Source: Lophium mytilinum
Lineage: Eukaryota > Ascomycota > Dothideomycetes > Mytilinidiales > Mytilinidiaceae
Assembly (NCBI GenBank): GCA_010093605.1
Contig: MU004195.1
Location: 1,259,736-1,323,735, forward strand
Length of the DNA: 64,000 nt
Direction: 5' to 3'
In this document: positions 6,945 to 32,412 of the stretch, piece after piece
Layout of the letters: every line of letters starts with the position of its first letter
Position numbering within the stretch: the stretch's first letter is position 1
Notes under the pieces: generated by a model
The model's input: only the letters and a program-made list of their open reading frames with translations
What the model was told of the DNA's origin: nothing
Databases searched by the model: none
Made by a program: the position numbers and the translations under genes

Positions 6945-7535
6945 TTACAAAAATGGCAGTGTCTCAATCCCCCTGGGTCCATTCTCTACTCTCTTCATGA
7001 TACTCTCGTGGCTTTCTCCAGCATTCAATCTGCTACAAAGATCCTCTGGATCGAAGTCTGTCCCAAAAGGATTTCCTCCAAACAACGGCCCCGCCATGAA
7101 CTCGTTCGCCTCTTCAACCGTATTAAAGTTGTCCGTCTGTGTCTCGAGCATATTCCCATCTGGATCACGGTAAAAGATGCTGGTCGTTGGCCCGTGGTTC
7201 ACGCTCCAGATGGGCAATATCCCTATTTCCTTTCGCTGTCGATACGTCAGGGCCAGATCGTCGAGAGTATCGAATGAGAAAGCAAGATGTTCGAGTCCAC
7301 AGGATGCGTGACTTTTTGGTGCGGTGCCGGGGATGTAGCCGATTGCTACGCGGTGATGCTCATTGTCGTATGTGAGGAATGAGAGCGTATTAGTCTCGTA
7401 GCTAGCGTGTGCACCGAGGAAGTCTTTGTAGAACTAAACCATTGGGGCGAAATTTGAGGTACGGAGGACCACATGAGCCAGTGCGGAAGGCGACTTCACT
7501 ATGGGGCTGTATGTGGAGGGACCGTTGATGACCAT
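6945..7535 (-). pseudogene. glyoxalase/extradiol dioxygenase-fold protein interrupted by one in-frame TAG
   Basis: Starting at the ATG at 7535, the frame reads to a TAG at 7436-7434 and then continues without another stop to 6945, about 197 codons in all. It encodes a vicinal-oxygen-chelate protein of the biphenyl-2,3-diol dioxygenase/glyoxalase type: ALAHVVLRTSN (first metal His), CGLEHLAFSFD (second His), and SIFYRDPDGNMLETQ (terminal Glu). The stop falls where relatives have the run MVxFYKDFLGA, usually with Q at x, so a single C-to-T change in CAG would explain it. Splicing around it would break frame. Either a recently disabled gene, a read-through product, or a sequencing error. It lies at the left edge of the metabolic block. 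Confidence 0.75.
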
Positions 7536-8796
7536 CTTGTGTATATTGCGATGCAGTGGAAAAACTCCCAGGAATGAGTGCGTGGAGACAATTCGAGATT
7601 TCCTTTCTCTTTTATTCAAGCAGATTGGCGATGTTTGCTGAATTACACACCATTAAAGAGAAACGCATCAAATCCACTACCATCTCCCAAGCTGTAAGCC
7701 CACTCCACAACACCCTCACCTCTACCTTTCACGGAGCCAGCTCAACTTCACCCGCACAATCATCCCATTCTCGCCTGAGACGAAACCTACCAAACCCTCT
7801 CCGCCACACCAAGACTCCATTTACCCTCCGAGTCTTCTACCTCAGCCACCACATACCCGCCTCACCGAATCCCAGCCCTACCTACGCCCAGCGACGTCAC
7901 GAGCAACGCCGGCACCCACTTACCCTTTTAATCCGGAGCTCTCTCTCACCCGGCCGAAATCCAGCTAAACGCGGGGTCATCTAGAATCCCGCAGTAGCCC
8001 GTCGAGCTCAGCCGCTGATCCCATTAGCGGCAGTTGGAGAACTGGGGTACCCCGCATTAAAACGCACGTCTGGGAGGCACTGGGGTGAATGCATACTGGC
8101 TGTAGCCCGGCTTGCAACCGATTTGGACCTCGGGACCGTTCGTTGCGTCCCTGCATACGGCGCCCCTCTTCGACTTCTAGCGCGCAGATGGAGGAGCGCC
8201 GTGAGCCGTGGGGATGGGTGCCCAAGAGATCGGAGAGGATGGCGGGCGCATGTGAATGCTGCGTAACCGATCTGCGGTATGCTGGATGGGATGGGGAGTG
8301 GGGAGCTAGGGTTGGGGACTGGGGATGCGGGAATTGGCATTACTATGTATGTACGTGCGTGTTGGTGGGTCGGTGCCGAGATCAAGATCTGGTAATTTTG
8401 CGAAGCTCGGGACGGAGGGTCAGCTGGTAAGAGGGGGTAGGGAGTCCTTTTGGCAGGAGTGACGTTTATGGGTGGGGAGTAAGGCTGCTGAAATGCCGTG
8501 TTGAGACATGGTTCGGTATTGGAATATATGTGCATTAAAATGGCGGCATTAGATACAGTCCGCTCGCCGTACGTAAGATAGCCGAAAGTAAACAATCCTT
8601 TCTGATATCCCCCTTTTATCCCAGCGCCCCCGCCCCCCGCCCCTCCCCCCCACCCCTCCCCTTTTCATAGTACAGCAGCGATTGCGGCGTTCGTTATAGA
8701 CAATTGTGGAAACCCCCAGATAACCACCACCGTCCTCGACTGCGAGGAGTGACTATTATGAATGAACAGCGTAACCAACTCTTCCCACCCCTGAAC
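7536..8796. other. gene-free intergenic stretch
   Basis: No supportable gene. Open frames here are low in conserved content. Visible features are GAGCTCCGGAT (minus strand, 7941-7931), which matches an element in the promoter near 18540, and a long C-rich tract at about 8623-8663 just downstream of the transcription-factor gene's stop. Confidence 0.5.
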
Positions 8797-11734
8797 TCAA
8801 TTCATGGGTATGAAATCCAGCTCTTCGTCCCCTAGTAACCCATTCATCGCCATACTCGACACTCGTGAGAAAGAGGGCAGGAAGCTAGGCCAGTTCTCAA
8901 GACCGATGTCCATAGAGTCGAGGCCGCCGAACTGGAGAAACGAAAAAGTGTCAGGCTGATCGAACGTTTCATTGTGTGAGCTGGAGGTGTTTGTTCTCAC
9001 CTCGCTCATCGAATACAAAGACTCCACACCGCTTTGCTGGAGTTGGGGCTCCGCCACGAGCGTCATTGGTGGCGGTGGGTCCATTTGCTGCTCTTGGCCT
9101 CCTACTACCCGCTCACGGGCTTTCTTGACCGTTGCGCGCGCTAAGCTGGTGATTTCGCCGGTGAAGGGGAAGGCGATCTTTGAGTTCGAGGCGAATTCGA
9201 GGAAGCCAAAGTGCCCGGCAACGACGTCCATGAGTGCGATGTCGGCCGGGGCTGAGGGTTGGTTGGGGAATTTGAGCACGTAGATGAAGACGTTGATCAG
9301 GCCCAGTAAGGGGTAAAAGAACGTCAGCCTATATAGTACATGACTTGTAAGCCGAAGGTGAGCTTCCGTAGCGGGAAGGAAACCAGAGAGGAGTTTGATG
9401 TCAACTTACCAGGTTGGCCATGAACCATTGGAGTCAATGTATTTAGTTGCTAAAATAATCTTTCGGGATGCATCGACTACTGTCTGTGTACTTGTATTTA
9501 TTTGCTCCCGGATTGCTGGTGTGGGGTTGCGGGTGAAACCGTTAGTATTCCACGGGTATGTGAAGACTGAATGAATGGCGATTAGGCTTCCATAAAAGGC
9601 AAAATGGAGATATATGATGTGGTAGAGATGGGTGCCAGGTGGTAGATAGGCTTGGTTAAATGGAAGGTCAGGTCGCAAATGTGGCGGTATGTTGTCTTTC
9701 CACTCTCGCAGGCGTCGCTCGACCTCGTGAGCTTTTTGGATGATAACCTCTGGTGTTTGTTTCGATGCCTTCACAGAACAAAGCTCCCTGGCGATCGAGG
9801 AGCCAATCTGGGCATGTTTGATAACGCAAATAAAGAAATCGAAATTGATGGCGCTGCCTTCGAGCACAGCAGTGGGAATCTCGGAACTAATATCGTCGTC
9901 ATCGATGGCCGACGGCCTTCCCGAACGGTACGCAATGTGCTTTTCGTAGGCATATATTGCCCAGAATAGCCAGTTGCGGTGCTGAATTTCCGGTTCCCGC
10001 ATGTTCCAGGTTTCCACTGGCTGACGATGCAGTCCCTTTGATTGGGCGAGGCGGAGAGCATTTGAGACTAGCATGTATTCCAAAGCCGGATTCCCAAGTC
10101 CCTCTGTGAAGAAAGCCTACCAGATATGTAAGCATGAGACTCGATAAGAGTCGCTTTACTTACCATTGCAAGTAGTGCCTGGACCGCGGATAATCCGGTA
10201 CGCATATATATCAGGTCTGTGTGCACAGATAGGGCGTTCTCAAAGTACGACCAAGCCTTTTCTTGAGCTTCAACAAAGGCGTTCGGGCGATCTTCTTTTG
10301 TGTGGACTATTTTGCAGCCTGAGGCATAAACAGTGTTTCGCAAAGCGTACCACGCTGAGTCTTCTTCAATCGTCTCTTGCTGGAAGTGTGCTTGCAATCG
10401 TGCCTCAAACATTGGTCGATGCACTACTCCAAAGACCTTATCGAGGCTTTCCTCGAAGTAAGCTTGAAGAAATTAGCAATAGTGCGAAAATAATTTCAAC
10501 TTGAGCGGACCTTGAGTATATTTCCAGGCTGTGGCTGGATCTGGGTCCGCTGCTCTTTGCTGGGATATCTTCCGATCCATCTTGAGGTTCCGCGTCACAT
10601 CAAGAGACAGTGTGCTAGCGCTCGCAGCGAAATCCGATGCGCCAACTCTCTCCGACACCCATTTCATTCCTGGACTTGAACAAATGGACAAGTATGAGAC
10701 CGGACCTTCAAGAGTCACGGGTTTAGCATGAGAGGCTTAGTTCTGACACTGGACTTGGAGCCCTACCATGGTGCTCAGAGTTACTCTAGGTGGTGTTAGC
10801 GAGATTATGCTGTGCGAAGAAATGTCTACATACCATCTGAGGCGAGACTACAGCTTCTTCTGGAACATTTGCGTTGGAATGCTGCGGGAGTTGATACTCA
10901 AGCATTTCTCCGCCACCACTGAAAGTATCGGACATAGCATTTGACATTCGTCTTATTGATGATTGTGGTGATGCTGTCTGGGGTGGTGAATGGGGAAGCA
11001 TGTTATTTGGGATTGATAACCGGGGGAGACTTGGGGCACCCATATCTCCGCTATGGTCGTTCCTCATGACGTTGTTCAAGGGGCTTCCACCTTGGCCCAT
11101 ACTGGCAGGACTCCGAAGTAGATTCAGATCCCTCTGGAAGTCGGTTGGAGTCGGCGTTTGGCCAGTCATATCCCCTGGGAATGGCTGGCACTCGGTTGCG
11201 GCCGGAGTTTGATAGGACATGTTCAAGGTTGGGGTCTGCGCCTGCGCTTGGGCGGCCATACTGGCTTGAAGGAGGGTCTCCATGCGGGCGAGTCGCTCCT
11301 CTAACATCTTGTTCGCCTCATTGGCCTTCTTTCGTGTCCGCTGGTGTACCACAGGGTACACACAGTTCTCTCGGTGGTCCTGAGAGTCGTTCAGTAGATG
11401 TCTGATCCGGGTATGGTGGAAAGTCGCAATATACCGTGCAATTGGTGCAGGGCCGAGCTCCATTGCCTAAATATACTATTAGTATATTCTCAAGGCTAAA
11501 GCTCTTTTCAATTGATGGACTTCACTAAAAAGAAAGCACAGAGAATAGACTGATAATATGTGGTTTTACGCGTTCTCTCGAGCGCCTCGAGCTCTCAGAA
11601 GCTCGAGAAAGCTTCAAGAATGCAGGGAACATGCGTTACGACCAGAACCTCTCAATCAACTCACATTTGACCTTCTTTAGTCGGCAGAAGTTGCACGCGA
11701 CTGTGCATTTCGTCCCTTCCCTTGGGGTAGGCAT
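8797..11734 (-). CDS. Zn2Cys6 transcription factor with fungal-specific regulatory domain
   Basis: Likely pathway-specific regulator of the block. Eight exons: 11734-11665, 11466-11435, 11379-10834, 10785-10767, 10705-10511, 10462-10164, 10116-9410 and 9328-8797, giving 799 residues with every phase consistent. The zinc cluster is assembled from three exons: C14-x2-C17-x6-C24-x5-C30-x2-C33-x6-C40. A basic linker and coiled coil follow (KKANEANKMLEERLARMETLL starts near residue 53). The middle-homology domain includes HHGPVSYLSICSSPGMKWV, YMLVSNALRLAQSKGLHRQ and RNWLFWAIYAYEKHIAYRSG. Exon 4 is only 19 nt, and intron 1 (198 nt) is the longest here. The domain type is certain; the target genes are an inference from position and shared promoter elements. 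Confidence 0.9.
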
Positions 11735-12631: not shown

Positions 12632-14663
12632 CTACTTCTGCATATCGCCGATTTTCTCAAATTCGAACTCGCTGTCCTGCGTCTGCATCCCCACTGTAGA
12701 CGTGAAGGCTTCCGGCTGGCGGTCCCCATTCGACAGCTTCGCGACGCCTTGTCCTGCCCCTGTGATGACGCCCACGATCGTCTTTGCGGCGTCCAGGTCT
12801 GCAACAGCGTCGCCTCTCCATGACACATGCCCGTCTGGACGTATGAGCACCAGCCGAGCGCCCCATACACCGTATGCGTGATCTTCCCCGTCCAGCTTGA
12901 CATGCTTGATGGGAGTTGACGCCGCCTCGGCCGCTTGCAATACATGGCCTGATCCCCGCTCGCTGCCGTCGGCAAACTCCACCAAAGTAAAGTACTTGCC
13001 ATAGAGGTCGAAGATAGGGCGCCCGTCCTTCAGGAAGACATGGGGAGCACGCATGCCAGGCCAGGTACTGGGGTGGTACGCCGTGGGGTCGAATTCTGGC
13101 GCCGGCGTCGACTCGTCGGGAATGCAAATGCTCGATTGGTATCGATATCCCATTTCGACTCCAAAGTCCTTGTTCTCGTTATCGTGCGTCTGGTAGTGTT
13201 CATCTAACGCCTTCCTTTTCTGCCGTCCTTGATCGGTGATGGAGTCGATGATATGCGGGTCGGCGCCGAGAATTTCGCCCACCTTGATATGCACACCGAG
13301 GTGCACGCCTGACCGCTCAACACTCATCAGCGCGACTGGTCGTCGGTCCTCTTCGTATGCCTGCAATAGTCCCGACTTCCCGGTACCGTTCATCACCATG
13401 CCTAGCTTCCATCCGAGATCGACCGCGTCCGCTATCCCCATGTTCATGCCATAACCGCCAGTTGGTATGTTTTGATGTGCCGCATCTCCCGCCAGAAAAA
13501 CTCGCCCGAGTGGACTAACGTACTTTCGCGCGACCGCAATATGTGGGCGGTATGTCGACCGTACCAGGATCTCGTCGATTTTGATCTTATACAGCCCACC
13601 GAGACCACCGAAGACCTTGTATACGGCTTCTTCTGATCCGACGCCGTCAGAGCTAACATCCAGAGGGAAGTTCAAATGGCATGTCCATGTATCAACCTCG
13701 TCTTGGGCTATGCAGGCTCCGCCAAATCCACCGGCCTCGGCTTGGAGGACGAATAAATGCCAGAATTGGCCTTGTTTACGAATACGCGCGAGATCCTTAG
13801 ACTTGAAATGCACCAAAAGCACGTAGCCAGGGCTGTGGGTCCCTGTCAGCTTTACCTTTCTTTTCGGTGTCAGGTGTGGATGCACGACTTACATTGGTCC
13901 GCCATCTAGTGGCATTTTCAAGCTACGCCGAACCTTGCTTGATGCTCCATCGCAAGCACCGACGTACCTCGACTTGAAGATATGCCGCTTTCCAGTGGAA
14001 ATATCTGTGACCGTAGTCTTGACGCCTTCTTCTAGTTCCTCGGCCCCTTCAACCTTCCATCCGAAACGCACATCCACGGCGGGATCGTTGTCGCAACGCT
14101 CCTTCATTATTTTTTCGAATAGTGCCTGCGACAGTCTTTGATATGGTTCGAGTGGCTGAGTGCCATCGTTCTTTTCTTGGATGGTTTTTCGCCATTGGTC
14201 CACTCCAGGGAGTTTCCAGCTTGTAAGAGCCTCGGTTTTATCCAAACCACTGGATATTAGGACGGTGTAAGGTATTTCGGAGGAGACGCCTTTTATCGTG
14301 AGAAATCAGTACACAGACGCCAAATAGGCTTTGCAGCAAGAAGTCGTTTGACCATAATGGATAGTTTTGGGGTGTGGAAGCGCTGCTCACCTTCGGTCCT
14401 AATGAGCTCAGCTAGGCCGAGCTTTCGAAACCATTCCATAGACCGGCAATTGGTCAAGTCCATCTTGGGCCATCTTTTCATGGCTGTCAGCCACCCCTGC
14501 AGCCACCACATCGAGGCAAGGACCGGACTTACTTTGTTGTCGTATCATTTCTCTCCAGTAAAAGTGACTTAACACCATAGAACGATAAGACTGTCGCCAG
14601 GATAAGTCCAACAGGTCCTCCACCTGCAATAAGGACAGTGTCTTCGGGCAGTGTATGTTCCAT
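12632..14663 (-). CDS. FAD-dependent aromatic hydroxylase, phenol hydroxylase/PheA-TfdB type
   Basis: Flavoprotein monooxygenase expected to hydroxylate a phenolic ring with NAD(P)H and oxygen. Four exons: 14663-14533, 14473-14391, 14289-13893 and 13832-12632, giving 603 residues. The FAD site near residues 9-20 reads IAGGGPVGLILA, followed by a conserved WPKMDLTNCRSMEWFRKLG. The DG motif is VGACDGASSKVR, and the GD motif is GRVFLAGDAAHQNIPTGGYG, followed by MNMGIADAVDLGWKL. The roughly 170-residue C-terminal part (GKYFTLVEF... VLIRPDGHVSWR) is the thioredoxin-like domain of phenol hydroxylases. The acceptor after CCCACAG at 13833 was chosen because it restores GGPIPGYVLLVHFKS. It diverges from the SnoaL-like gene at 15073. 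Substrate unknown. Confidence 0.9.
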
Positions 14664-15072: not shown

Positions 15073-15732
15073 ATGGCCTCTATATCCTGGCCTACTCCGG
15101 ACTTCCCTAAGAAGGTCGAGGAACTCATAACCGAGTTCTACTCCCTAGCCGACAGCAAGGAGGACACCACTCCGGAGAGGTTCGCCGCTTTGTTCGCCGA
15201 GGATGGGAAAATGTATGGATTGGCGGGAGCATCTACGGGGCGAGCTGGTATGTTTACCGTCTCAGATCCACGCCACGATTTGTTTACCTTGTGGTGATCA
15301 TCCGCGTTGCGCTGATGGCCAGATCATGCTTCCGAACCTTGGCGCCCTCGGTTCAATTCCTCCGAGATCATCAAAACTTCCCGTCCCATAATACTGACAA
15401 TCTACGGTATAGATATTGCAGCCGCCCGACCGAAGTCTTGGAATATGATCGCTTCACGGAAGCATCAGCCGGTGAAAGTTTACAGCTTTAAGTCTGATTA
15501 CAGCGACGTCCTCGTCATGGGACAAATCTCTGCAACACTGACGAACGGCAACTCTGTCTCCGTCGAGTATATTGCGCAATTCGTACTCAAAGGCGATACC
15601 AGCGCAACTCCAGTTATTGCATCATATAAATCTTGGGCTGTCAGAATCCACAATCTTCCCCTCTGCAAGCGAGTCCCGCTGACCCGGATACAGGACTCTG
15701 CTCCATGGTTCAAGGCCATGGGAGTACAATGA
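15073..15732 (+). CDS. SnoaL/NTF2-like small protein
   Basis: A small alpha+beta barrel protein of the SnoaL/NTF2 superfamily, whose members are polyketide cyclases, isomerases or hydratases. Predicted exons are 15073-15247, 15323-15382, 15422-15639 and 15694-15732, giving 163 residues. The reading is ITEFYSLADSKEDTTPERFA, then LFAEDGKMYGLAGASTGRA, KHQPVKVYSFKSDYSDVLVM, VSVEYIAQFVLKG, and finally KSWADSAPWF. The 39-nt intron at 15383-15421 is short and frame-neutral, so it may be retained. The last intron (54 nt) is also frame-neutral but gives the expected C-terminus. Transcribed divergently from the flavin hydroxylase at 12632, with which it may be co-regulated. Substrate unknown. Confidence 0.7.
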
Positions 15733-15970
15733 TTCAAAGGCGTTTCTTTCCGTCATACAGTAGCTAGCCGCATTATTCCCACTCGCAATTGAAGCGAATC
15801 GATGATTTTTCTTGGATCTTTACACACGAATGGTATAATAGTCTCTGAATAGGGATGCCACATCGACTCGACCGCCAGGTACCGATGAAAACCTTGCAAA
15901 CTCCCCCAAAAAGTTTATTTTGCAGTACATCCATGTTTCTGTTGACAAAGCAGTGCAAGAAGTCTAGCTT

Positions 15971-18207
15971 CTATAACTTAGCGACCTCATCTACATCAAC
16001 TTCCTTTGCCGCGGCCTCGACATCAAAATACTTCTGATACAACCCCACGGCATCAGGGTTCGCGACCACGTTACTCTTGCTGTCTCGCCCACTAATCACG
16101 TTCTTCACCAATATCTCCAGCTTCTTACCCACGTGCGAATACGGGATGTCGTCAACGTAGAAGACATACTTGGGCACATGTCGTCTACTCAGCTGCTTGC
16201 CAATCTCCGCCTTGAGTTGATCCTTGAGGGTTTGTGTCCGCTTTTGGCCTTGTGCCATCTTCAGGAACAGAATGACGGATTCATCGCGGTCTTGCGGCCG
16301 GCGCTGTCCCACACAGACGCTGTCGGCGATGCTGTGGAAGAGGCGGACAACGGCGTAGATTTCGGCGCTACCGAAGCGGACGCCCGAGGGATTCAAGACG
16401 CCGTCGCTAATTAATTTCCGCGTTAGCTATTGCAAATGTGGGTTCTCCCTCCTCTCCTCCGAAGCCACTTACGATCGCCCGAGCATCTGTATGCCGCCCG
16501 TCGTTGTCGAAATCCTAATCAAATCACCTTGGACCCAGACTTTGGGCCCAAACAAGTCGTAGTAAGCTTCTCGATACTTGGCGTCACCTCCGAGGCCCCA
16601 GAATGTGACCGGTTGACTGGGGAATGGTTGCCTCACTATCAGCTCTCCGGGCTCGTTGCTGGCATGTATGCTGACGCCTTCTGGATGGCTGGGGTCGAAC
16701 ACATCCACTGCCATTCCTAGCACTTTTGCCTGGATTTCGTCGGCATACAGAGGGAGGAGAGGTGAGCCACCGACAACTGTAAGTCATTAGAGAGAAACTT
16801 TCAAGAGCTCAGCTGACCGTAAAGCACTTACAGGCGCACGAACAGTCTGTACCACCGCTTCCAGATATTAGCTGAACTTTAGAAGGAAAGCCCTTTGCAT
16901 AGAACCATTCCACAACGTCTGGTGGAAGGACCGATCCCGTTGATGTTACTTTCCGCAGAGCTGAAAGGTCGTGCTCATCCCGGGGACGCTTGTTGCTGTC
17001 CATGAGGTCGGTAAGGTACTTTGCAGATGTCCCAAAGACGTTGACTTTCAGCTTTGCGAGCAACTCTGGCAAGAACCCTACATCGGGGTAAAGAGGCGAT
17101 CCAGAATACACTACCACGGCTGCTCCGGTTCCTAGGGCGGAGAGAACGAATGCCCACATTATCCATGCAGTTGTAGTATACTGGAACATCAGATCTCCTG
17201 GGCGTAAACCGATCTGGACTATGTAGTCCTTCTTCACCTGCAAAAGAACACCGCCAGCAGTGTGGAGTATGCATTTTGGTGCGCCAGTAGTTCCGGAAGA
17301 GTAGAAGATGAATGCGGGCTGACTGAAAGGTAGCTGTTCGAAGACCAGTTGCCGGCCAACCCCTTTGGCATAGAACTCTGGGAATGTGATCCCCTTCTCA
17401 ATCGACGCAGCCTGCTTCGGATCCGAGGACGTAAGCACGATATGCACCAGCTCCTCTCCTTGGGCAACCGTCTTCGCCCAGGTCTGCACAGTGCCCATCA
17501 GATCCCGAAGCTTGCCGTTATATATCACAGACGTGTCCGAGAAAACGAGCTTGGGCTTCGTCTGTACCAGGCGATCCAAAATACCCTGAACTCCAAAATC
17601 CGGGGATACCGAAGACCAGATCGCGCCAATTGATAGCGCCGCCAGACATAGGATGATGGGCTGCGCGTTATTCCCGATGACTGCGGCAACTCGATCTCCA
17701 GTCTTCACGCCCAGACTCCGCATTGCGTCGGCGCTTTTTTCGACGAAGTCGTACAGCTCGCGCCAGGTTATCACAGTAGCATCTAGCGATGCTTCGACGA
17801 CTTCGAGGATTGCTCTTCCATTGGGGTCGCGGTTTAGCAGCACACTTCCTGCGAAGTTCATCTTTGCGCCCGGGAAGAATTTAGGCGACGGGTAGAGGTT
17901 TCCGCCATGCTGACTCCCTAAAGTGGTAAGCAAAGCTTAGAGTCATATCCGGGAACTATTTTGAGGGGCAACGGACAGGTTCGAAAGCTGCTCTTGGGGG
18001 AGCTGTTGCACGCATGTCTAGAAAGTCGAACAGCGCCAGCCAGAAATCGCCCGCAGTATTGGGACTTATCGACCACGCGTGGAGCTCCGAGTAAGATTTC
18101 ATGGATAGATGGTAGCGCTCATTTGAGTAGTCCCTGAATCTTGCCATCGCAGAGTCGTTCAGGTCTTCGTGCGAAGGTCGCCATATCGGAGCTCTTTGCT
18201 GCGCCAT
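15971..18207 (-). CDS. acetoacetyl-CoA synthetase, probably peroxisomal
   Basis: Adenylate-forming enzyme activating acetoacetate (or a related beta-keto acid) to its CoA thioester. Exons 18207-17977, 17909-16832, 16776-16473 and 16406-15971 give 682 residues. Visible are the N-terminal ACAS motif FFPGAKMNFAGSVL, the P-loop FYSSGTTGAPKCILH, SGSGGTDCSCAFVGG, WVQGDLIRI, GVRFGSAEIYAVV, and the catalytic-lysine segment HVGKKLEILVKN. The first intron is uncertain: the donor at 17976 (GTCCGT) with the acceptor after GAGTCAG keeps frame, but another join is possible. The protein ends AKL, a recognised PTS1 variant, which points to peroxisomes. Its promoter is shared with the flavin monooxygenase at 18696, arguing for a metabolic role in the block rather than general ketone metabolism. 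Confidence 0.9.
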
Positions 18208-18695: not shown

Positions 18696-20154
18696 ATGGC
18701 TAAGAAAGATCTCAACGTCATCATTGTCGGCGGAGGATTTGGAGGACTTGGTAGTGCGATTGAGCTCACGAGACATGGTTTCAAAGCTCATGTTTATGAA
18801 GCCTCTCCGGATCTTACTAGGCAGGGTAGGTCGACATCGAAAGCAATGTGATTCGGGTCACTGATTCCGGCTCTAGGCGATGTCATCATGCTGGGCTCGA
18901 ACTGCACCCGTATTATAAAGAAATGGGGCAACGTCTTAGACGAAATCCTCAAGATAAAGTCGCAACCAGATACGCTAGCCATCCAAGACAAGAATGGCAA
19001 GGTCATGCTCGAGCAACCGCTGCCGAAAGAGTTTGACGGATTCCCTAATATCTACACGAACCGGACTAAGGTGCAGAATTTTTGCTACGAGTACGCGAAG
19101 TCCATCGGCGTCAAGTTTACTTTCAACGCTCGAGTAAATGAGTACTTCGAGGAGGGCGACAAAGCTGGCATCGTCCTCAATGGGGAGAAGCTCACCGCAG
19201 ATTTCGTCATTTCAGCGGATGGCGTGCATAGCAAAGGTCGTGCCTACGTCACCGGCGTAGCGGACAAAGCCCAAAAGAGTGGATTTGCGGTGTACAGATG
19301 CTGGTTCCCGATAAGCAAAATTGCTGATCATCCTCTGACGAAGTACATTGCGGAGTCCAAGAAGGACATGTTCGCCATCTGGATCGCGGAGGATACGCAC
19401 GCCATCCTTACCACCAACGTCAACCTCCAGACTTGCACCGTATTTGCGACCCATAAGGACTACTCCGATATTGCGGAGTCGTGGCATTTGAAAGGGGATG
19501 TCAAGGAAATGGAGCGCGCGGTTGAAGGTTGGGATCCAAAGCTCATTCAGCTCGTCAAGTCGATCCCAGAGGATGGCTTGATTGATCATAAGCTACTGTG
19601 GCGCGATCCTGTGAAGAAGTGGGTGTCGAATAAGGGCCGCGTTTGCGTAGTGGGCGACGCAGCTCACCCTCATCTGCCGACCTCCGGTACTGGCGGTGCA
19701 TCGGCTATTGAAGACGGAGCAACGATTGCGGCATTGTTGGAGAGGACTGGAGACGTCCCGCTTGCACTGAGGTCGTATATGGCGCTGCGGCAAGTTTGAC
19801 TCCCCTGGATCGTCGCAAATAGCTAACTGATCGTGAAGATACGAGCGAACTGCATTGACTCAACGCATGGGCTGGGAAACGCGCCACAGATGGCATCAAA
19901 CCGACTGGGATGAGGTGGCCAAGAACCCAGCTTTCTTGAAGCTCCCGCAGCCAGTGTGGTTGAACGGACATGATGCGGAACAGTATGCGTATGATAACTT
20001 CGACGCTGTCAGTGCGAATGTTCTAAAACAAGCACCTTTCACATCTACCAATGTGCCGGATGGTCATGTTCATGAGGACTGGACGATTGCAACAATGATG
20101 TCGGCGGAGGGCGAGAAGGCTGAGGCTGGGTTTTATGTCGTCAATAATGACTAG
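18696..20154 (+). CDS. FAD-dependent monooxygenase, salicylate hydroxylase-like
   Basis: Second flavin hydroxylase of the block, of the smaller salicylate-hydroxylase-like class. Exons 18696-18825, 18877-19774 and 19839-20154 give 447 residues. The FAD site near residues 8-21 is IIVGGGFGGLGSAI, with an acidic ribose-binding residue in HVYEAS. The DG motif is VISADGVHSKGR, and the GD motif is GRVCVVGDAAHPHLPTSGTG. The donor at 19775 was chosen because it yields ALRSYERTALTQRMGWETRH. It diverges from acetoacetyl-CoA synthetase, with two shared promoter elements between them. Related enzymes hydroxylate or decarboxylate-hydroxylate aromatic acids. The exact substrate cannot be read from sequence. 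Confidence 0.9.
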
Positions 20155-20545: not shown

Positions 20546-21679
20546 TCACTTGACCGTCTTTCCCGTTCCTCTCTCTTTCTTTAGTATATCAGTAATAGGC
20601 TGGTAGGCCTGATCCAACGCTTCCTGTGGCACGCCAGTTCCCTCTACGGGTGTGTCTGGGTCGAATCCAGGCGGCGAAACGAACCATGTTCCGATCGTCC
20701 TCTCTCCAACTTTGCAGGTTTCGAAGACAGTTCCTCCGGGGTACTTGCCCTCCTTGATTATCTTCATGTATCCCTTCGCGACATCAATCGCATCGATGGC
20801 GATGTCATCGGTGTATCCGTACCGTGCTTGTTTCTCTGGGTGATTCAACCAGAGCGGGGTTCTTACAATGCTGAAGTAGTAGAAAGATTAGAGAGCTATG
20901 TTAGATGTTAAAGAGAGATAGTTTGACTGACCCAGGTGCAATAGTGACGACTTTCACGCCCTCCAACCGATCCGTTTGGCCCATTGATCGAGTGAAGCCG
21001 ATCAGGGCATGCTTTGTGGTGCAATACATGGGAGCAACATCCTGTCCCATATAGCCTGCCATTGAAGCCATGATGGCTACCACACCTTTCTTGTTCTTGC
21101 TGAGGAGAGCAGTGACGGCGATACGAGTGAGCTTCAGGGGGTGGTTGACATTGATGTCAACGTAGGCGTAGCGTTCATTCTCGTTGTCTTCCCAGTAATC
21201 TGACCACGGCTTTTCAAACGAACGACGTTAGTGGAGCTTCTTCTATATTACTCCGTTCATCTGGAATACTAGGTATGGGAAATTGGGATATCCCTCACCG
21301 GTTCGAAGACACCGGCTCCAGCGACGTAGACATCAGGGACGTCTTCAAACTTCTCCTCCGACACCTTGACCAAATGCTTCAGCTCTGTCCATTTCGCTAC
21401 ATCGGTCTTTTGGAAGAAGACAGTTTTCGGGTTCGCTTTTACGAACTCATCGCCATCTGGCTGCAGATTGAGGTCTGCAATGATGACTTTGGCTCCTTCC
21501 GCAAGTACAAGCTTCGCAAGCTCGAGATGGATGCCTTTGCTATAGTTAGTAAAATCGTTCTTGCTTCAAACTAGAGAAAATCACGGAATAAGCTTGAGAC
21601 TGTTCTTACCCCCACCACCTCCAGTTATAAGCACGATCTTGCCATTGAGGTCAAAGTCGCCGACAGGACCGTGAGGCAT
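20546..21679 (-). CDS. short-chain dehydrogenase/reductase, 15-hydroxyprostaglandin dehydrogenase-like
   Basis: NAD(P)-dependent oxidoreductase interconverting an alcohol and a ketone. Exons 21679-21610, 21534-21299, 21209-20932 and 20870-20546 give 302 residues. The cofactor motif is ITGGGGGIHLELAK (the usual third glycine of TGxxxGxG is histidine here). The catalytic pair appears as MASMAGYMG (Ser) and MYCTTK (YxxxK). The typical VDINVNHPLKLT and IAPGIVRTPLW segments are present. The acceptor after GCAAAG at 21535 was chosen because the alternative AG breaks frame. An exact CCG-N4-CCG element lies about 190 bp upstream. Probably oxidises or reduces an intermediate made by the neighbouring hydroxylases. 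Confidence 0.9.
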
Positions 21680-22053: not shown

Positions 22054-23163
22054 CTACTGTCCCTTCCGCGCATGCGCCCTCTTCCTCTCAATATCGCCCT
22101 CGGCTAGCCACCGACTCGCCTTCACAAGCTGGATCATGTTAATAATCTGCTTGCCCGCCATGACGGGAAAGGAAGTAATAGCCAAGATCCAGGGGATAGT
22201 AGAGTCCATTTTGTTAGCGCTATAATGGAAAGGTTAGCACGTACAGACGCGCAAATCTTAGATTACGAAATTTTAGGAGGGGTAGCTTTTAAGTAAAGAT
22301 AGATATTGGACACCACATTAGAGAAAGTCATAGACGTACCGGGCATATTCCATTGCGCCTGCCGACCACGGACTTGCAAATACCATAGAGCGTTCTACTG
22401 GCGCAGGCTTCCCGACGGGCAAGCTTGCAAGGTTATCCGAGGTCTTTAGGGTAGGCGAGAGGTAGGGCGAGGAGAAGGAGAGGAGGTAGAGCGCGATAAA
22501 GAAGAGTTCGTTCAAGGCGCAAAAGATGAAAAGGACTTTCTGGGGGGCAGTATCAGTTCATCTGTGCCGCGGGGACGTAAAGTGAGGTAGGGCGGAAATA
22601 AGGCTTAGGATCCGACGCACCTTATTCGTATAATACATCTTCAAGACCCAACTCCTGCTCTCATCAACATCCTTGTGGCTCCGCCCGCTTTCCCCCATGC
22701 TTAGCGTCGCGTACATGTGCATGTAATGGCTTGCCAGATCCAGACTAATAAGGCCTTGGAATATGATGCTCCACCGGGGGAACGCGCTAGCAAGGAAAAC
22801 AAGCAAACAGGACGTGGTGCAGCGATCTGTTACCATGTCCAGTACGATGCCGAACTTCGTCTCCTGGTCAAAGTACCGCGCCGCCATGCCGTCTAGTGCA
22901 TCAAGTAGGCAGGATGCACTGTAGAGGAGGGAGCAGGTCCGGGGATGGAGCGGCATATAGTAGAGGGAAGCGATAGTAAGGACAACGCGGGAGTAGCCTG
23001 GAAAGAAACTATAAGTTGGTAGGGTTGCAAATAAGAATAGGGGTTTCGTACCGACTAGGTTTGGATAGAAGAGGAAAATGTTCTCTTCTCGCTCTTGGGT
23101 TTGCGATCGAGCGGGCCTCATAGTGATGCCACTGCCGTTTGCCAATGGCCGTGGGCCCGCCAT
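22054..23163 (-). CDS. pis1: CDP-diacylglycerol-inositol 3-phosphatidyltransferase (phosphatidylinositol synthase)
   Basis: Endoplasmic-reticulum membrane enzyme joining CDP-diacylglycerol and inositol to make phosphatidylinositol. Exons 23163-23052, 22997-22621, 22539-22340 and 22219-22054 give 284 residues. The CDP-alcohol phosphotransferase motif D-G-x2-A-R-x8-G-x3-D-x3-D is complete (LDGMAARYFDQETKFGIVLD continuing to MVTDR). FLFYPNLVGYSRVVLTIASL and YMPLHPRTCSLLYS are typical of fungal PI synthases, and several hydrophobic membrane segments follow. The start was taken at the first ATG, which leaves a 35-residue N-terminal extension. It sits inside the metabolic block although its product is general lipid metabolism. 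It may be a resident housekeeping gene. Confidence 0.93.
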
Positions 23164-23908: not shown

Positions 23909-24717
23909 TCATCTTATAACCTTGCTAACCTTGGTCTCGATAATCATGGGTTTGCCCTCTTCAACGACGAAGTGAGCTGACCCCACAAACAGGTCGTGTT
24001 CAAGCGATTTAAGGTGCTCAGCTCCAGTCTAGATGGACAATTAGCTTTTGCATTCGAATGCTGTGATCCTGTTTACCTCAATTTTGATTTGAGTAACTGG
24101 TAGATAATTAGCCCTGCGCTTCAATGGTTCCAATGGTCACTTACATGCGTCTCCAAAGTCCGTTGTTGTCGCATCTGGGCTTTGGAGCAGAATCTTGACG
24201 AACTGCTCGGTTAGGCGAATAATTCCGGTGTAAGAGTACGAGAGGAACTACGGATCTCGTTAATACAGATATGTTTATTCGCGATCTTAACTGACTGCTC
24301 CGTCTACGGTTCTAGAAAAAGACGAGAAGTTAGCTAGGCCGTTCCGAAAAACGTCCAATGCCCCTTACTTTATCGCAGCGTTCACATTGATCCGTGCGTG
24401 CGTCTGTCCTGGTTCAGGGCGAACATAGTCCGACCCGTAGACAACTTCGCCGTCAATAGCTGGCTCGAAACCAGGCTCGCTCTTAATCGATCCTGTCACG
24501 ATTGGCTGACAGGCCCGTTCAGCGTCGAGAAACGGACAAATTCAAAGGTGAGGCCTACTGTGATTTGGAGCCCACCACCGGTTGCGACACTTCCTGAAGG
24601 CTTATCAGTGAAGAAGGAGAGACTTTAACCGCGATGTATGTACCTACCGACATCATAAGGTATTGTTGCTTGGAGAAGAACAGTAAAGGCAGGCTGGAGG
24701 GAAGGGAAGCCGGACAT
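23909..24717 (-). CDS. DUF3237 family protein
   Basis: A small beta-rich protein of a family with no firmly assigned activity, often near aromatic or polyketide metabolism genes. Seven exons: 24717-24648, 24593-24559, 24505-24369, 24311-24296, 24247-24145, 24096-24077 and 24028-23909, giving 166 residues. Family landmarks join across the introns: IPYDVGGSVATGGG, TPIVTGSIKSEPGFEPAIDG, VVYGSDYVRPEPGQTHARIN, then IKTVDGAFLSYSYTGIIRL, and near the end FTQIKIETGAEHLKSLEHDL, FVGSAHFVV. Exons 4 and 6 are only 16 and 20 nt. All six introns are 48-66 nt. It lies upstream of and in the same direction as pis1. Function not assigned. Confidence 0.8.
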
Positions 24718-25039: not shown

Positions 25040-25738
25040 TTACTCCAACCTGATGTTCTCTTCTATTTTCAAGCCACTAGTGAGATCCGCCTTTTGTGTA
25101 GCCATATTCACCGGGAACGAGAAATGCTCATGCACATACTTCCAGTTGCCATCATCCCTCTTACGGACGAGACTCGTAGTGCGAAAAGTGAAATCAAAAG
25201 CGTTTCCATCAGCAGCTACTCCCCAATATCGTTGCAACGCAGTTGCATATCCAAAAGTCTCCGTTACAGCCGTGATCTCGAGGTCCTTAAACGCGATCTG
25301 TGCGTCCGCGAGATAGGGAGTGATGTTGTCATAGTGGGGACGGAATCCAGGCCGTTGGACCGATCCCATCAGGTCGAAGTACATGGCCTCATCGAGGTCG
25401 TAGAACTTCTTCCCCCAATTGGGATGGTCTTTACAGTCGAAGTTACAGAAGTAGGCAAAGTCTTTGTAATGTTGAAGAATCTCCTCCTCAGCCCTCGCAA
25501 GTTTGGGATCGTGGTCCTAGCGTTTTGCTTAGTAAGTAGCTCGGTTCGGCTAAACTTCCCCTTTCCCTCAACGTTCTCCCATATCGTCACCACTCACTTT
25601 GTTTGCAGGTCCCGGAAGATCTTTGTGGAGCTCCGGGATGGTTGTCAGCGTTTTCTGCCACTCTAGTCAGCCTACTTGATGTCTGGATAGGTCCGGTATG
25701 TTCAATTCATTGCTCACCTCGTCCTTGAAGTCAGACAT
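25040..25738 (-). CDS. SnoaL-like/NTF2-fold protein
   Basis: Second NTF2-fold protein of the block. Exons 25738-25718, 25660-25598 and 25516-25040 give 186 residues. The N-terminus is assembled as MSDFKDEWQKTLTTIPELHK. It is followed by ARAEEEILQHYKDFAYFC, DLMGSVQRPGFRPHYDNI, FKDLEITAVTETFGYATALQ, and FDFTFRTTSLVRKRD with WKYVHEHFSFPV, the pattern of SnoaL_3/DUF4440-type domains. A role as a cyclase, isomerase or accessory protein is possible but not shown by any catalytic residue I can defend. It diverges from the P450 at 26099 across a short shared promoter. Confidence 0.8.
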
Positions 25739-26098: not shown

Positions 26099-27859
26099 AT
26101 GGCTATCCTCACGACCATTGAAAGTTTTCTCCCAGCAAAATCTCAGGTACCAGGAGGCTATATAACCTACTTGGCTGCCTCATTTGCGGTAAGTTTCCCA
26201 ACTACGGCCATCATCACGTGTATCTAACGAAACGCATTAGCTTTTGATTGCGGTATACAAAGTATTAACGTATGACAAACGCCGTAAAAGCTTGCCACCT
26301 GGCCCGAAAGGGCTGCCCTTTATCGGGAGTCTCCTTGACTTCGCAGACGCCAACAAGCTTCCTGAAGTATGCTTAGGCTGGGCCCAGAAGTATGGCAAGA
26401 TCTCTTACGCGAAGATTGGTGGTACCGATTTCGTCTTCCTTAACACACCTACGGTTGTCAAGGACCTTATGGACAAGCGTGGACAAAAGTATAGCGATCG
26501 ACCACATATGCCAATGGCATTCGATGCCGTTTCCAACCAGAAACGCCAGTTTTTCATGCCATATGGTGACATCTGGCGTAACGTGCGAAAAATCAGCCAC
26601 GCAGCTCTGAACCTCAAGACATCTTCCTCATACAAGCCGGTGCAAGATTTTGAATCCAAGCAAGTGGTATATGACCTTCTGCATTCCAAGAATGATACCG
26701 ACTTTTACGACATCAACCGACGGTACTCCAACAGCTTGATCATGCTGATCACTTATGGCCGTCGCGTAGCCACTATGGAAGACCCGGCATTCCAAAAGAT
26801 CTTCAAAGTTCTTGAGCATTTCACCGCAATGGCTGAGCCCGGTGCTTGGTTGGTCGACGCATTCCCGTCCCTTGCAAAACTACCATCATGGATGGTGCAG
26901 AATTGGTGGAAGATTGGCCGAGAATGGCACGCAGAGGACTCCGCAATCTACCTTGGTTTCTACCGCGAGCTGGTCGAGAAAGCGAAGAACGGCACTGCGC
27001 CCGAGTGTTTTGTTCGGGACTTCTACGAGAGCAATCCCGAAAAGAATGGCGTCGACGAGGAGGGTGCTGCTTACGCTGCTGGTACGCTGGTAGAGGCAGG
27101 GAGCGAGTCTACGTCTACTGCGATCAACAGCTGGCTTCTAGCATGCTTGCTCTATCCCGAAGTTGTCACGAAGGCACAAGCAGAGCTTGACCGCGTGGTT
27201 GGCCATGATAGAATGCCTACTTTCGAAGACGAAGATAATCTGCCTTATATCAGAGCGATGGCCAAGGAAACTCTCCGCTGGCGACCGATCACCAAGATTG
27301 GCGTCAGTCATTCCACTACTGAAGACGACTGGTACGAAGGCTACTTCATCCCGAAGGGATCAGTTGTCGTTCTTAACTGGTGGTGAGTTGACACAGCAAG
27401 AATGTTCTGTTTCCTTTGACTACAAACTTACGCACTTTTAGGTCAATCCATTTTGACGAGAAATTCCACAAAGACGCTCAAGCCTTCAACCCTGACCGCT
27501 ACGTCAACGACCCTCTTTCCACAGCCGAATGCCTTAATGCCGCCGACCCCAACGCGCGAGATCATTACACCTACGGAGCCGGCCGTCGGGTCTGCTCTGG
27601 TATTCATGTGGCTCAGAACTCGCTTTTCATCAACATGGCACGGACACTTTGGGCTTTCAACGTGAAGAAGGCAAAAGGCCCTGATGGTAGAGAGGTGACA
27701 CCTCCAGGAACCATGGAAGACGGTTTCCTGTGTGTACCAAAGAAATTCGCGTGTCACTTTGAACCTAGAAGCCCAAAACACGCCAAGATCGTGGAAGAAT
27801 CCTGGATCGAAGCGGAGAAAGAAGGCTTGAGCTGGCTAAGGACCAAGCATAGGCTGTAA
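26099..27859 (+). CDS. cytochrome P450 monooxygenase (first of two)
   Basis: Membrane-anchored haem monooxygenase. Exons 26099-26188, 26241-27382 and 27442-27859 give 549 residues. The N-terminal anchor is near residues 20-40 (YITYLAASFALLIAVYKVL), followed by the hinge LPPGPKGLPFIG. The I-helix reads AGTLVEAGSESTST, the K-helix ExxR is ETLRWRP, and the haem loop is YTYGAGRRVCSG with its cysteine near residue 462. The first position of the usual FxxGxRxCxG is Tyr, as in several fungal families. The 3' exon join gives VVLNWWSIHFDEKF. It is divergent with the SnoaL-like gene. The family is certain; the CYP number and substrate are not. Confidence 0.93.
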
Positions 27860-28620: not shown

Positions 28621-29697
28621 ATGCCAACCCAATACGTCCCCCCAGAAGCCGACTACTGGCTCCCCGTCCCGCCCCCCGGCGAAACATGGCACACCCACAC
28701 CATCCACACGCACTACTTCGGCTGGAGCATCCCCTCCGAAAAGCTCGGCTGCTTCATCTACGTCCGCGCCCAGCCACATTTCAAGCTCTGCCTTGCGGGC
28801 GTCTCCATCTTCCGCGGCATGAACAACCTGCGGCCCCTCGACTGCGAGCACTCCAACATCGTCAACACCCTGCCTTGGCCGACGGTCACGCCGAGCGGCG
28901 AGGGTGGTTCCATGAAGCTCGAGACGGAGAATGGGCTGAGCATCGAGTTTCTGGAGCCGGGCCATAAGATGCGGATTGTGTATAAGAGCAAGGACGGCGC
29001 GACGCATTTCGATGTCACGCAGACCGGGCTTTGTCCTGCGCTGCCTAGGGGTCATGTGATGGCGGGCGAGGACCGTGATAGGCGTGAGGGGCAGAAGCCG
29101 GGTGGGTTGGAGCAGTTGATGCATTGCGTGGGCGACGTGACGCTGAATGGGAAGGAGTACAAGATCGACTGCTCCGCATCGCGGGACCGGTCGTGGGGTC
29201 AAGTGCGAACGGAAGACGAAGTCACTTTTCCCCCCATCGGTTGGTCGCCCATGGCATTCGGAAAAGAGCTCTCCTTCAACCAAGTCGGGATCGAGGATTA
29301 TCAAAAGAGCACCCCGGATTGGGAGGGCGTGTTCAAGTATGATAAGAGCAAGCCGTCGCATCACTTTTCGTGGCTGGTGAAGGATGGCACGGAGGTGAGG
29401 AATGTTATAAAGGTGCATAGAAGGGTGCTTGAGTTTCACCCGCAGTTGCATTCGGCGATAAAGCAAGAGATTGAGTTTGAGGATGATAAGGGAGAAAAAT
29501 ACTTCATCAAAGGAGAGGCGATTGCCGTTGCTCAATTGCCCTCTTGGCCGAATAACGTCTTCGTGGACAGCGTGTACAGATGGGAAGATGATAAGGGGAG
29601 GGTCACCCATTGCGCTTATCAAGAGGCGTGGTACGCAAGATATCAGCAGTTTGTGAAAGGGTTGTTGGATATCAAGCCGAAGCAGGCAATCCCGTAG
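28621..29697 (+). CDS. AttH-like (DUF7064/DUF7065-type) protein of unknown function
   Basis: A 358-residue single-exon protein, unusual beside its intron-rich neighbours. It begins MPTQYVPPEADYWLPVPPPG with ETWHTHTIHTHYFGW, and contains CSASRDRSWGQVRTED, FSFNQ-like segments and AYQEAWYARYQQF near the end. The layout, two beta-rich lipocalin-like halves with an N-terminal W-H-HYF segment and a central R-D-R-S-W-G, resembles AttH/hydroxyneurosporene-synthase-like proteins seen near steroid, carotenoid or cyclic-lipid metabolism genes. I cannot name an activity. It has no signal peptide or membrane segment. The next gene (P450) runs towards it on the other strand, and a block promoter element lies upstream. 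Confidence 0.7.
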   Translation: MPTQYVPPEADYWLPVPPPGETWHTHTIHTHYFGWSIPSEKLGCFIYVRAQPHFKLCLAGVSIFRGMNNLRPLDCEHSNIVNTLPWPTVTPSGEGGSMKLETENGLSIEFLEPGHKMRIVYKSKDGATHFDVTQTGLCPALPRGHVMAGEDRDRREGQKPGGLEQLMHCVGDVTLNGKEYKIDCSASRDRSWGQVRTEDEVTFPPIGWSPMAFGKELSFNQVGIEDYQKSTPDWEGVFKYDKSKPSHHFSWLVKDGTEVRNVIKVHRRVLEFHPQLHSAIKQEIEFEDDKGEKYFIKGEAIAVAQLPSWPNNVFVDSVYRWEDDKGRVTHCAYQEAWYARYQQFVKGLLDIKPKQAIP

Positions 29698-30297
29698 GGC
29701 GTCTAAAAGCAATGAAAGGCGTTCTGAACATACATGACATTTTAAACGACTGAACTCAGCGCGTTTGTTACTCGTTCTTCCTCATGTCCATTCGCAGAAT
29801 GCAAGTCTCTTGTGCGAAAGTACTGAAGTTAGGAGGTATCCTCCTTATGATAGTGTCTTTTGAGCCTAAGGTTTGAGTGAAGGGTCGAGGTCATACGGAA
29901 TAGAAACAGTAATTTATATCACTGCAACATCGATAAGCCATAGTTTCGAGCGTGAGTATTGAGGTAGCTGGAGAACAGAACAAGCCATGAGGTTTCTTCG
30001 GTTAGGTACACTGGCGAGCGACCTTTGTCACCCACTTTGTCTTTCTGAGCATTTGCTAGGAAAATGAAACCTGTCAATACATGATGAACCTTCTTTAGCG
30101 TTCTTTGGAGCTCCAATGTTTCAAAACTTTCCAATGCTTGATGGACACGTTAATTCAAATTGCATCTCGCTCGCTAATGATAGTTCGCACCTGACTGCCG
30201 GAGATAATACGACTACATGTAGACTAGTCTTCCCATTCATAGCACTAGGAAAATTCGCTTACCGACATTCTATATAAACAGTGTGTTGTCATTATAC
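29698..30297. other. convergent 3' intergenic region, nothing recognised
   Basis: The stretch lies between two gene 3' ends. Only a short minus-strand frame (about 70 codons, 30134-29919) without a known domain is present. Confidence 0.45.
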
Positions 30298-32412
30298 CTA
30301 TGGCTTCTTCTCCTTCGAGACGAAAACCGTCTCGAAGAACTCCTCTGTAAAGTTCCCATCCGCATCCAGTGACTTCTGGGCCTCTTTCCAGGAGTCTCGG
30401 ATGATCTCCACCCTGCGTTGGTCGCGAGGCTCGATCACAGCGCTATTTCTTGTTAGCTCGCGGGTAGAGGACGCTCCTCCTAGGATAGAGTACTTACGGG
30501 TAGGGTACGGGGCGAACGATGAAGCCCTGGGTGACTTCATCTTGGTTGATCGGGATAGGTACGCCGGCACTATCAAGCTTGCGGGAGAATTTGAACCCCC
30601 ACAAGAGGCGGGAGACAGCGGTGAAGAGACCTCGTTCCGCAACATGGAAGCCAGGGCATACGCGGCGGCCAGCACCAAACGTGAAATGTGGGCGCTTGCT
30701 CGAATCGGGATCGATACCGTAATTATCACTCAGCGTGTTCTCCGCACTGTGACGAGAGGGGTCAAACACCCGAGGATCGTTTTTGACGTTGTTGTTTAGA
30801 GTCCAAACATTGATGAACATGGATGCGCCTTTGGGTATTAGATATCCCTTGTAAATGTCGTCCTTTAGTAGCGAGTGCGGTACTGCAGCACTTAGAGTCG
30901 TGGGCATCCCTACTAAAGTTAAGATTGACACACTGGAATGTTGGCAGACTTCATACATCTTAGCGACTCCTCGATGACAGCGCGGATATAGGGCAAGTTC
31001 TCCCGGTCTTCCCAGACCGGGAGTCGATCTGGTCCTACGACCTGATCAATTTCACGTTGCGCTTCTGCCTGTACCTCTGGGTAAAGGATCATAGCTTTGA
31101 CGAATCCCAGCATAGTATTCCATTGCGTATCTCTAGTTTCTATTAGCATTGAGTCTCATTGGTACGAAAAATTGAATCACGAACGTGGCTGCGCCGAAGC
31201 CATGAGCAGCATTGTTTGCTATCTCAACATCGGTCAGTCGATCTTTGTCTTCGCTGAGAAGCATGTCACGTATAAAACCTGGAAGTTCATTATTCTTGAA
31301 GATCGGACCATAAGCGGGTACGTTAGCTTACTTGGATACACTTTGCCTTCTTGGATGCTGGTCTTTGCGCCCTCCATAAGCTGCATGAATAAGTTCTCTT
31401 CGATGACCCTAATTCGTGCCAGCAGCTGCTTGTAGGGCATTAGGAATGTCGGACAGTAGCGGTAGAATGGTCGGAGAAACGGGAAAAAGTCGACGAGTTG
31501 CAGATTCGCGGCCTCACTTGTCAGATCCATCCACTTCCTTCGGATTAGCAGGTATTGAGAGGAGGCTGATCATGTGACTTACATCCATCAAGTCCTTAAC
31601 TCTTCCCCCACTACTCGTCGTCCTGAAGCCGTAGAGCACCGTGGAAGCTACACTAGTAGTGTACCGTTGCAAGTGACGAGAAAAATCATCGGGCACATCC
31701 AGCATTTCGTTTAGCAGCTGAGTGCTGTCGAACGCCTAAGATACATCAGCCTGAACTATGCAATACGGGCTAGACGAAACATACCTGATAGGGAATGTAC
31801 TGATTTGCGACCGTTTTGTTTAAGCGCAGATGGTACATTTTGCGTTGACGTCTCCAAACATCGTCATTACTGATTGCATGTTAGTGATCCGTCTGATGAG
31901 AAAATCTCAGCATCATATTTTACTCTCGAAACGCAATATTCATGTTGCCCCCGAACTCGCGAATGAACAAGTCAGGACGAGCAGCATAGGTGTGGCCGCG
32001 TTTCTCCAATAGATCCTTGACGACTGTTTCATCGTTCATGAGGACCATGGTCTGACCCGCCAACTTCAAGGTCATAATAGGCCCATCTGTTTTTCTATGT
32101 TAGACTGCAACGCTGAAAATGGGTACCACGACCATTTCTTACATTCCTGAGCCCATTCCCTGAATTTGAAATGAAAGTCTTTCAGTGGCATCTGGTGGAG
32201 GTTACCAAGAATAGGGATTGTGGGTGGCCCTGTCCATCGTGATTAGAGCGAGCAAGGTAATGCTGGATACCAACATGCTACTCACCTGGAGGCATATTTT
32301 TGGGCCTCATTCCATAGTTCAACACCTTGTACCCTACGAACGCTCCAATAATGGCGATAGCGAGCCAATACACATACGGAAACTCTGAGGTGGTGTTCTG
32401 AAGTAGCCCCAT
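30298..32412 (-). CDS. cytochrome P450 monooxygenase (second of two)
   Basis: Ten exons: 32412-32286, 32229-32143, 32086-31924, 31869-31785, 31735-31583, 31533-31332, 31278-31185, 31132-30957, 30909-30498 and 30442-30298, giving 547 residues with all phases consistent. The anchor near residues 14-36 ([18 protein letters not shown]) is followed by [13 protein letters not shown]. The C-helix [13 protein letters not shown], the I-helix GFGAATDTQWN (acid-Thr pair created across intron 7), the ExxR motif EESLRWMP, and the haem loop [12 protein letters not shown] (cysteine near 447) are all present. It differs clearly from the P450 at 26099 in intron number, so it is not a recent tandem copy. A perfect block promoter element lies about 155 bp upstream. 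Substrate unknown. Confidence 0.9.

Follow-up and report, generated by a model that had tools for sequence, protein, structure and literature searches.

A thirteen-gene oxidative island of Lophium mytilinum, possibly catabolic, with a recurrent regulator/VOC gene pair and a second phosphatidylinositol synthase gene

We analysed a stretch of 64,000 nucleotides of the Lophium mytilinum genome (assembly GCA_010093605.1, contig MU004195.1, positions 1,259,736 to 1,323,735), called the window below, in which an island of 13 genes at 6945..32412 had been described in an earlier note, made from the letters alone, as a co-regulated metabolic cluster without a backbone synthase. All 13 genes are located where they had been placed. 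When the models were rebuilt with explicit introns, 12 of the 13 genes were open and all introns were of the GT..AG type, and the remaining gene, of the VOC family, was recovered as a frame with a single TAG. Profile scans confirmed a Zn2Cys6 domain with Fungal_trans, two FAD_binding_3 proteins, a short-chain dehydrogenase (SDR), DUF3237, SnoaL_3, CDP-OH_P_transf, two cytochromes P450 (P450A and P450B) and one AMP-binding protein. Most family names given earlier match the outcome of these scans, and the Zn2Cys6 regulator, the SDR, the DUF3237 protein and the two P450s each obtained a domain match. Loci outside the window are given below by contig of the same genome (C1, C4 and so on; the window lies on C15).

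The regulator gene (8797..11734, minus strand, 8 exons; PF00172 and PF04082) and the VOC gene (6945..7535, minus strand; glyoxalase fold, biphenyl-diol dioxygenase-like) lie at one end of the island, and their relatives recur together elsewhere in the genome. The VOC gene has four further loci in the genome, three of which read as open, and its best paralogues are at C15:18710-19255 (66% identity) and C16:33485-34021 (60%). The best relatives of the regulator, at C15:22139-23580 (pieces 43-62% identical, 38.7% over the whole model) and C16:37785-39020 (32%), sit 2.9 and 3.8 kb, respectively, from these same two VOC paralogues, and VOC and regulator share one strand at all three loci. Under uniform placement, a hand estimate puts at about one in a million the chance that both regulator relatives would fall less than 5 kb from any of the four VOC loci. 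The C15 regulator model has a Zn2Cys6 domain; the C16 model aligns to residues 228-750 of the window regulator alone, and no zinc cluster was seen in it.

The two loci resemble the window in further members. The one at C15:9192-23891, near the contig end, adds a SNOAL1-like protein, a polyketide-cyclase-family protein, an SDR, an alcohol dehydrogenase (ADH)-like gene (labelled by inspection) and a sugar-type major facilitator superfamily (MFS) transporter, and is putatively a compact catabolic locus related to the window cluster. Its SNOAL1-like protein, which has no Pfam match itself, stands beside the VOC/regulator pair and is 28% identical over 148 positions to SNOAL1 of the window, whereas the MFS transporter, the ADH-like gene and the polyketide-cyclase-family protein set the locus apart from the window. 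At C16:33473-42945, VOC, flavin hydroxylase, regulator-like and P450 genes stand in a row, so that the flavin hydroxylase and the P450 are shared with the window, and this locus, too, is related to the window module. None of the proteins predicted in the stretches read from C15 and C16 matched the acetoacetyl-CoA synthetase paralogue (AACS), the DUF3237 protein, the AttH-like protein or the phosphatidylinositol synthase (PIS) of the window.

Clustering was tested by the placement of paralogues within the genome itself (43.18 Mb, 24 contigs). Among 60 loci, 12 cross-family pairs of member relatives lay within 10 kb of each other, whereas 5000 uniform placements gave 0.69 pairs on average and never more than 6; two of the 12 pairs share a single flavin gene that has two P450s close by, and for some loci the underlying hits are weak, down to about 24% identity. 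Without P450s, 5 pairs were found, compared with a null mean of 0.24 and maximum of 4. SNOAL1 and the AttH-like gene gave no loci in the genome search and are outside the count. The recurrent types were regulator/VOC, SNOAL2/P450, SDR/P450 and FAD/P450. The SNOAL2/P450 pair, head-to-head in the window, repeats its order at C4:2467879-2471132, where the SNOAL2 relative occupies C4:2467879-2468537. The regulator/VOC pairs and this repeated order are the evidence on which we rely for clustering. The view that the genes are together beyond the chance of neighbourhood is supported by the regulator/VOC pair at two unlinked loci and by the repeated gene orders.

The VOC gene itself is interrupted by one in-frame TAG at codon 34. 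The frame is otherwise open, the glyoxalase/VOC domain match covers the part after the stop, and the protein keeps two histidines (in LAHVVLRT and GLEHLAF) and a glutamate (in NMLETQ) at what we take to be the metal-ligand positions of VOC enzymes. An extradiol-type VOC dioxygenase combines a 2-His-1-Glu site with an uninterrupted frame, and here the TAG breaks the frame. Because of this stop, no full-length ring-cleavage enzyme would come from the sequenced locus by ordinary translation, so that the ring opening included in the earlier description keeps its fold and presumed metal positions but is weakened as a step encoded here. At the position of codon 34, N, E and D are found in the three open paralogues, so a tryptophan there would be unusual; UAG-to-Trp RNA editing was considered for this stop and is not supported. 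Upstream of the gene, 7536-8796 is a long intergenic stretch with runs of C at about 8625-8660.

Both flavin hydroxylases are present. FAD1 (12632..14663, minus strand, 4 exons) is a TfdB/RebC-like class A flavin hydroxylase, with 2,4-dichlorophenol 6-monooxygenase (203.5 bits) and RebC as the nearest solved structures; on the phenol 2-monooxygenase profile PRK08294 it scored 110 bits against a cut-off of 560. FAD2 (18696..20154, plus strand, 3 exons) is a MAK1-like/CtdE-like group A flavin monooxygenase: its nearest solved structures are a MAK1-like monooxygenase (239 bits), CtdE (233.5) and 6pvf (183), the last of which we take to be PhqK, an FAD monooxygenase. A salicylate monooxygenase structure gave 82.5 bits, and the salicylate monooxygenase profile TIGR03219 gave 79 bits against a cut-off of 446. 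The count of two hydroxylases was therefore right, but the second is MAK1-like and not salicylate-hydroxylase-like. A relative of FAD2 on C19 is divergent from a P450.

The AMP-binding protein, AACS (15971..18207, minus strand, 4 exons), scored 633.4 bits on the acetoacetate-CoA ligase profile TIGR01217, above the cut-off of 520.9. A higher-scoring copy is present on C18 (708.1 bits), which marks the cluster protein as a paralogue, possibly with a different substrate. It ends in AKL, judged by sequence a possible peroxisomal signal; no canonical type 1 peroxisomal targeting signal was found at the C-termini of the 11 other modelled proteins listed, FAD2 included. The acyl-CoA synthetase proposed earlier is thereby sharpened to an acetoacetyl-CoA synthetase paralogue with a possible peroxisomal signal. 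A paralogue on C5 lies beside a P450 and transcription-factor-like, ADH-like and aldehyde dehydrogenase (ALDH)-like genes, the last three labelled by inspection; this stretch, C5:1021630-1033803, appears as another oxidative cluster without a backbone gene.

The pair of SnoaL-fold proteins proposed earlier was recovered unevenly: SNOAL2 (25040..25738, minus strand, 3 exons) matches SnoaL_3, and SNOAL1 (15073..15732, plus strand, 2 exons; SnoaL/NTF2-like) has just a sub-threshold match to SnoaL_2 (18.8 bits, cut-off 27). The DUF3237 protein (23912..24717, stop codon excluded, minus strand, 7 exons) scored 113.6 bits. Neither SNOAL1 nor the DUF3237 protein had a meaningful match in PDB, and SNOAL2 had a weak NTF2-like one. 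For the protein labelled AttH-like (28621..29697, plus strand, single exon), the sole Pfam match is a marginal one to DUF7064 (25.8 bits, cut-off 24.7); no second match was found in its own genome and none in PDB, and a search of bacterial and archaeal contigs gave no relative. The SDR (20546..21679, minus strand, 4 exons) was identified by domain scan. P450A (26099..27859, plus strand, 3 exons) has its best paralogue at C1:1934236-1935796 (49-54% identity), adjoining a CMD-family protein, a 3-hydroxyisobutyrate-dehydrogenase-like domain and a flavin monooxygenase, the latter two merged into one model by the gene finder. Within C1:1914761-1940354 there are three P450A-like matches in about 21 kb, with the CMD-family protein and flavin monooxygenase at one end. 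The best paralogue of P450B (30298..32412, minus strand, 10 exons), at C4:1963518-1965409, has next to it an EthD protein and a gene related to the window SDR.

Between the SDR and the DUF3237 gene lies a gene of the phosphatidylinositol synthase type (PIS; 22054..23163, minus strand, 4 exons). It scored 44.7 bits on PF01066 (CDP-OH_P_transf; cut-off 22), and its CDP-alcohol motif is intact as DGxxAR(x8)G(x3)D(x3)D, which we take to be the PI synthase form, so that domain and motif occur together. The genome has another copy at C14:981580-982618, and both are open. The two are identical at 192 of 279 positions (68.8%), have all three intron positions in common as compared by eye, and show similar identity (46.5-49.1%) to the PI synthase sequences of yeast and human as typed in for the comparison, the window copy being 46.7% identical to the yeast and 47.4% to the human sequence. 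Synonymous divergence (dS) is 1.89, near saturation, and nonsynonymous divergence (dN) 0.25, which points to an old duplication and to constraint on either copy. At the variable position inside the catalytic motif, the window copy has Ile and the C14 copy Ala, as do, presumably, the yeast and human enzymes. A helicase gene, which we take to be DRS1-like, lies no more than about 1 kb from the C14 copy, and none of the relatives of cluster members is near this copy.

A second copy appears to be special to PIS, since four of five neighbouring housekeeping genes (Spn1-, complex-I-, Spt4- and Yme2-like) have no second match in the genome and the fifth, Ppt1-like, has family-level matches alone. Twelve of the 13 genes had been read as one pathway; the thirteenth, now recognised as PIS, need not be the outsider, because it duplicates a gene that is essential. 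Nothing except its position ties PIS to the pathway, and its membership is uncertain.

The island is flanked by genes which we take to be housekeeping: glutamate-synthase-like and Ctf4-like on the left, Chz1-, Spn1- and complex-I-like on the right. At the left edge, a gene at 5780-6692, for which the Pfam scan gave no match, stands between the housekeeping flank and the cluster. GC content at third codon positions (GC3) and codon scores of most members fall within or near the range of nine neighbour genes, with GC3 outside that range (0.55-0.69) for the DUF3237 gene (0.51) and the AttH-like gene (0.74). Horizontal transfer of the cluster was considered, but no case for it emerged, as most of these scores are near those of the neighbours. 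The absence of a backbone synthase, as described earlier, holds in that no ketoacyl-synthase match was found in the window; among the matches listed, the only one on its contig, at C15:1561031, lies 237 kb past the end of the window. Nonribosomal peptide synthetase (NRPS) and terpene-cyclase matches were absent from the modelled proteins, which were the scope of that scan, the genome search having covered ketoacyl synthases.

Co-regulation, which had also been claimed, fared less well than the grouping. An initial count covered 22 patterns of GC-rich promoter words chosen by inspection. An open scan then ranked CGGAGC/GCTCCG first in the cluster promoters, but 91% of 300 label shuffles were as good or better. 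The word is present in 7 of 10 cluster promoters, and absent from those of PIS, the regulator and the SDR. At the C15 and C16 loci it occurs 12 times in 8.5 kb versus 27 times in 57 kb (19 patterns tried), an apparent replication, but it is also found 6 times in 7.1 kb at the C4 and C19 loci, which have no regulator relative. Against a control of 82 kb, its ranks among 2086 words are 16th, 18th and (by product) 8th, and leaving out one promoter gives P = 0.17. Thus, the word is weak under the larger control and co-regulation is not established.

Taken together, the most likely reading is that the island is a regulated cluster which breaks down or detoxifies a cyclic and probably aromatic compound and which may be losing the ring-cleavage step; we give this reading a probability of about 0.5. 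The interest of the island lies in the repeated regulator/VOC pairing and in the PIS copy, which is a loose end. Besides the recurrent pairs, the reading is supported by the presumed housekeeping genes on both sides, by the lack of a ketoacyl-synthase match in the window, and by the catabolism-type genes at the loci of the P450A (C1) and AACS (C5) paralogues. Gene content, open frames and the recurrence of member pairs are observed; reactions, their order and the substrate are read from the families as follows. The Zn2Cys6 protein would respond to an inducer, either substrate or intermediate; P450A, P450B and the MAK1-like FAD2 might hydroxylate or epoxidise the ring, and the TfdB-like FAD1 might convert a phenol to a catechol. 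The VOC protein would open the ring, a step that is stop-interrupted here and that a paralogue at another locus perhaps takes over. Oxidation, isomerisation or hydration could be the work of the SDR, both SnoaL proteins, the DUF3237 protein and the AttH-like protein, and AACS would activate acetoacetate or a similar keto acid with CoA, probably in peroxisomes, for breakdown there.

Several observations weigh against this catabolic reading. The ring-cleavage gene is interrupted, no transporter was recognised among the island genes, and a shared promoter motif had to be dropped since label shuffles do as well and the word fades with the larger control. FAD2 is close to CtdE, presumably a biosynthetic enzyme, so that its family is shared with biosynthesis. 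A SnoaL-type protein is contained in a Trichoderma ergot cluster, according to PMC10735191, and in a lichen fungus a DUF3237 gene has two polyketide synthases nearby (PMC8262933), so the DUF3237 protein is no proof of catabolism. Moreover, the uniform null overstates the surprise of the pairings because oxidative genes cluster in fungi generally. Relatives of P450A and P450B were near another member's relative at 7 of 27 loci versus 4 of 69 for other P450s, but six P450 loci had been added to the catalogue by hand and 4 of the 7 positives are among them; without these, the figures are 3/21 versus 4/69, P450A/B relatives have no clearer neighbours, and the contrast was dropped as evidence of clustering.

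Three other explanations were weighed. That weak P450 contrast, together with the lack of any other genome match for the AttH-like gene and of cluster relatives near the C14 PIS, would suit independent oxidoreductase genes gathered by chance in a gene-rich stretch, which the recurring regulator/VOC, SNOAL2/P450, SDR/P450 and FAD/P450 pairs make distinctly improbable. A partial remnant of a catabolic cluster, in which the remaining genes may follow the VOC pseudogene, would account for an in-frame TAG where the open paralogues have N, E and D; with the 12 other genes open, their introns GT..AG and the coding statistics of most members within or near the neighbour range, we consider such decay unlikely. 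The island might also serve tailoring in a biosynthetic pathway, the backbone enzyme having escaped recognition or lying elsewhere, with the second PIS as a spare target protecting the producer. The intact second PIS, where four of five neighbours are single, as well as the CtdE resemblance of FAD2 and the setting of DUF3237 in the lichen fungus, speak for it. However, no ketoacyl-synthase match lies within those 237 kb among the matches listed, the P450A and AACS paralogue loci look catabolic, and the PIS promoter is without the candidate word, although this word, a weak one, is likewise missing from the promoters of the regulator and the SDR. The open-licence PMC literature also yielded no paper linking PIS to self-resistance or to a biosynthetic gene cluster, and we regard this explanation as doubtful, with quite low odds. 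That PIS is an insensitive spare and a compound made or cleared by the cluster inhibits PI synthase is very unlikely, and we know of no earlier target copy of this kind for PI synthase. If PIS does belong to the cluster, it would hint at a naturally occurring inhibitor of a fungal lipid enzyme that is essential. The cluster, whose regulator and VOC gene have neighbouring relatives at two more loci, offers a compact set for the study of substrate and regulator specificity.

Self-resistance by target duplication is reportedly found in clusters with a spare HMG-CoA reductase or IMP dehydrogenase. As in these, the extra copy of an essential gene is enclosed here in a metabolic cluster; unlike in these, no backbone enzyme was seen and there is no sign of PIS co-regulation. 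Salicylate-hydroxylase genes are described in M. fijiensis, and A. flavus cluster 32 combines such genes with a Zn2Cys6 regulator and a ring-opening dioxygenase, with none of the other members in the passages on these genes. In the open-licence PMC literature, no paper with the present gene set was found. According to PMC5611651 and PMC8120277, the maackiain/medicarpin monooxygenase MAK1 of Nectria haematococca belongs to the group A flavin enzymes, serves to detoxify plant phytoalexins and is putatively peroxisomal. FAD2 is like MAK1 in that its best solved relative is named MAK1-like, the sequence compared being that relative and not MAK1's own; it differs in being nearly as close to CtdE (233.5 versus 239 bits) and in having no peroxisomal signal at its C-terminus. 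The fungal degradative gene cluster concept (Gluck-Thaler and Slot 2018), as applied to Trichoderma in PMC10735191, covers pterocarpan hydroxylase, phenol monooxygenase, salicylate hydroxylase and ring-opening dioxygenase classes, and the window shares with such clusters the grouped hydroxylases, P450s and dehydrogenases and the lack of a backbone enzyme. Co-location is non-random here as well, as judged by the pairing of relatives against uniform placement. Unlike the core classes, FAD2 falls below the salicylate-monooxygenase and FAD1 below the phenol-monooxygenase cut-off. The window set adds AACS, DUF3237, DUF7064 and PI synthase to the degradative pattern, a combination that, to our knowledge, has no precedent, and the MAK1-like FAD2 and the VOC fold may, by their sequence, fit other classes of the degradative core.

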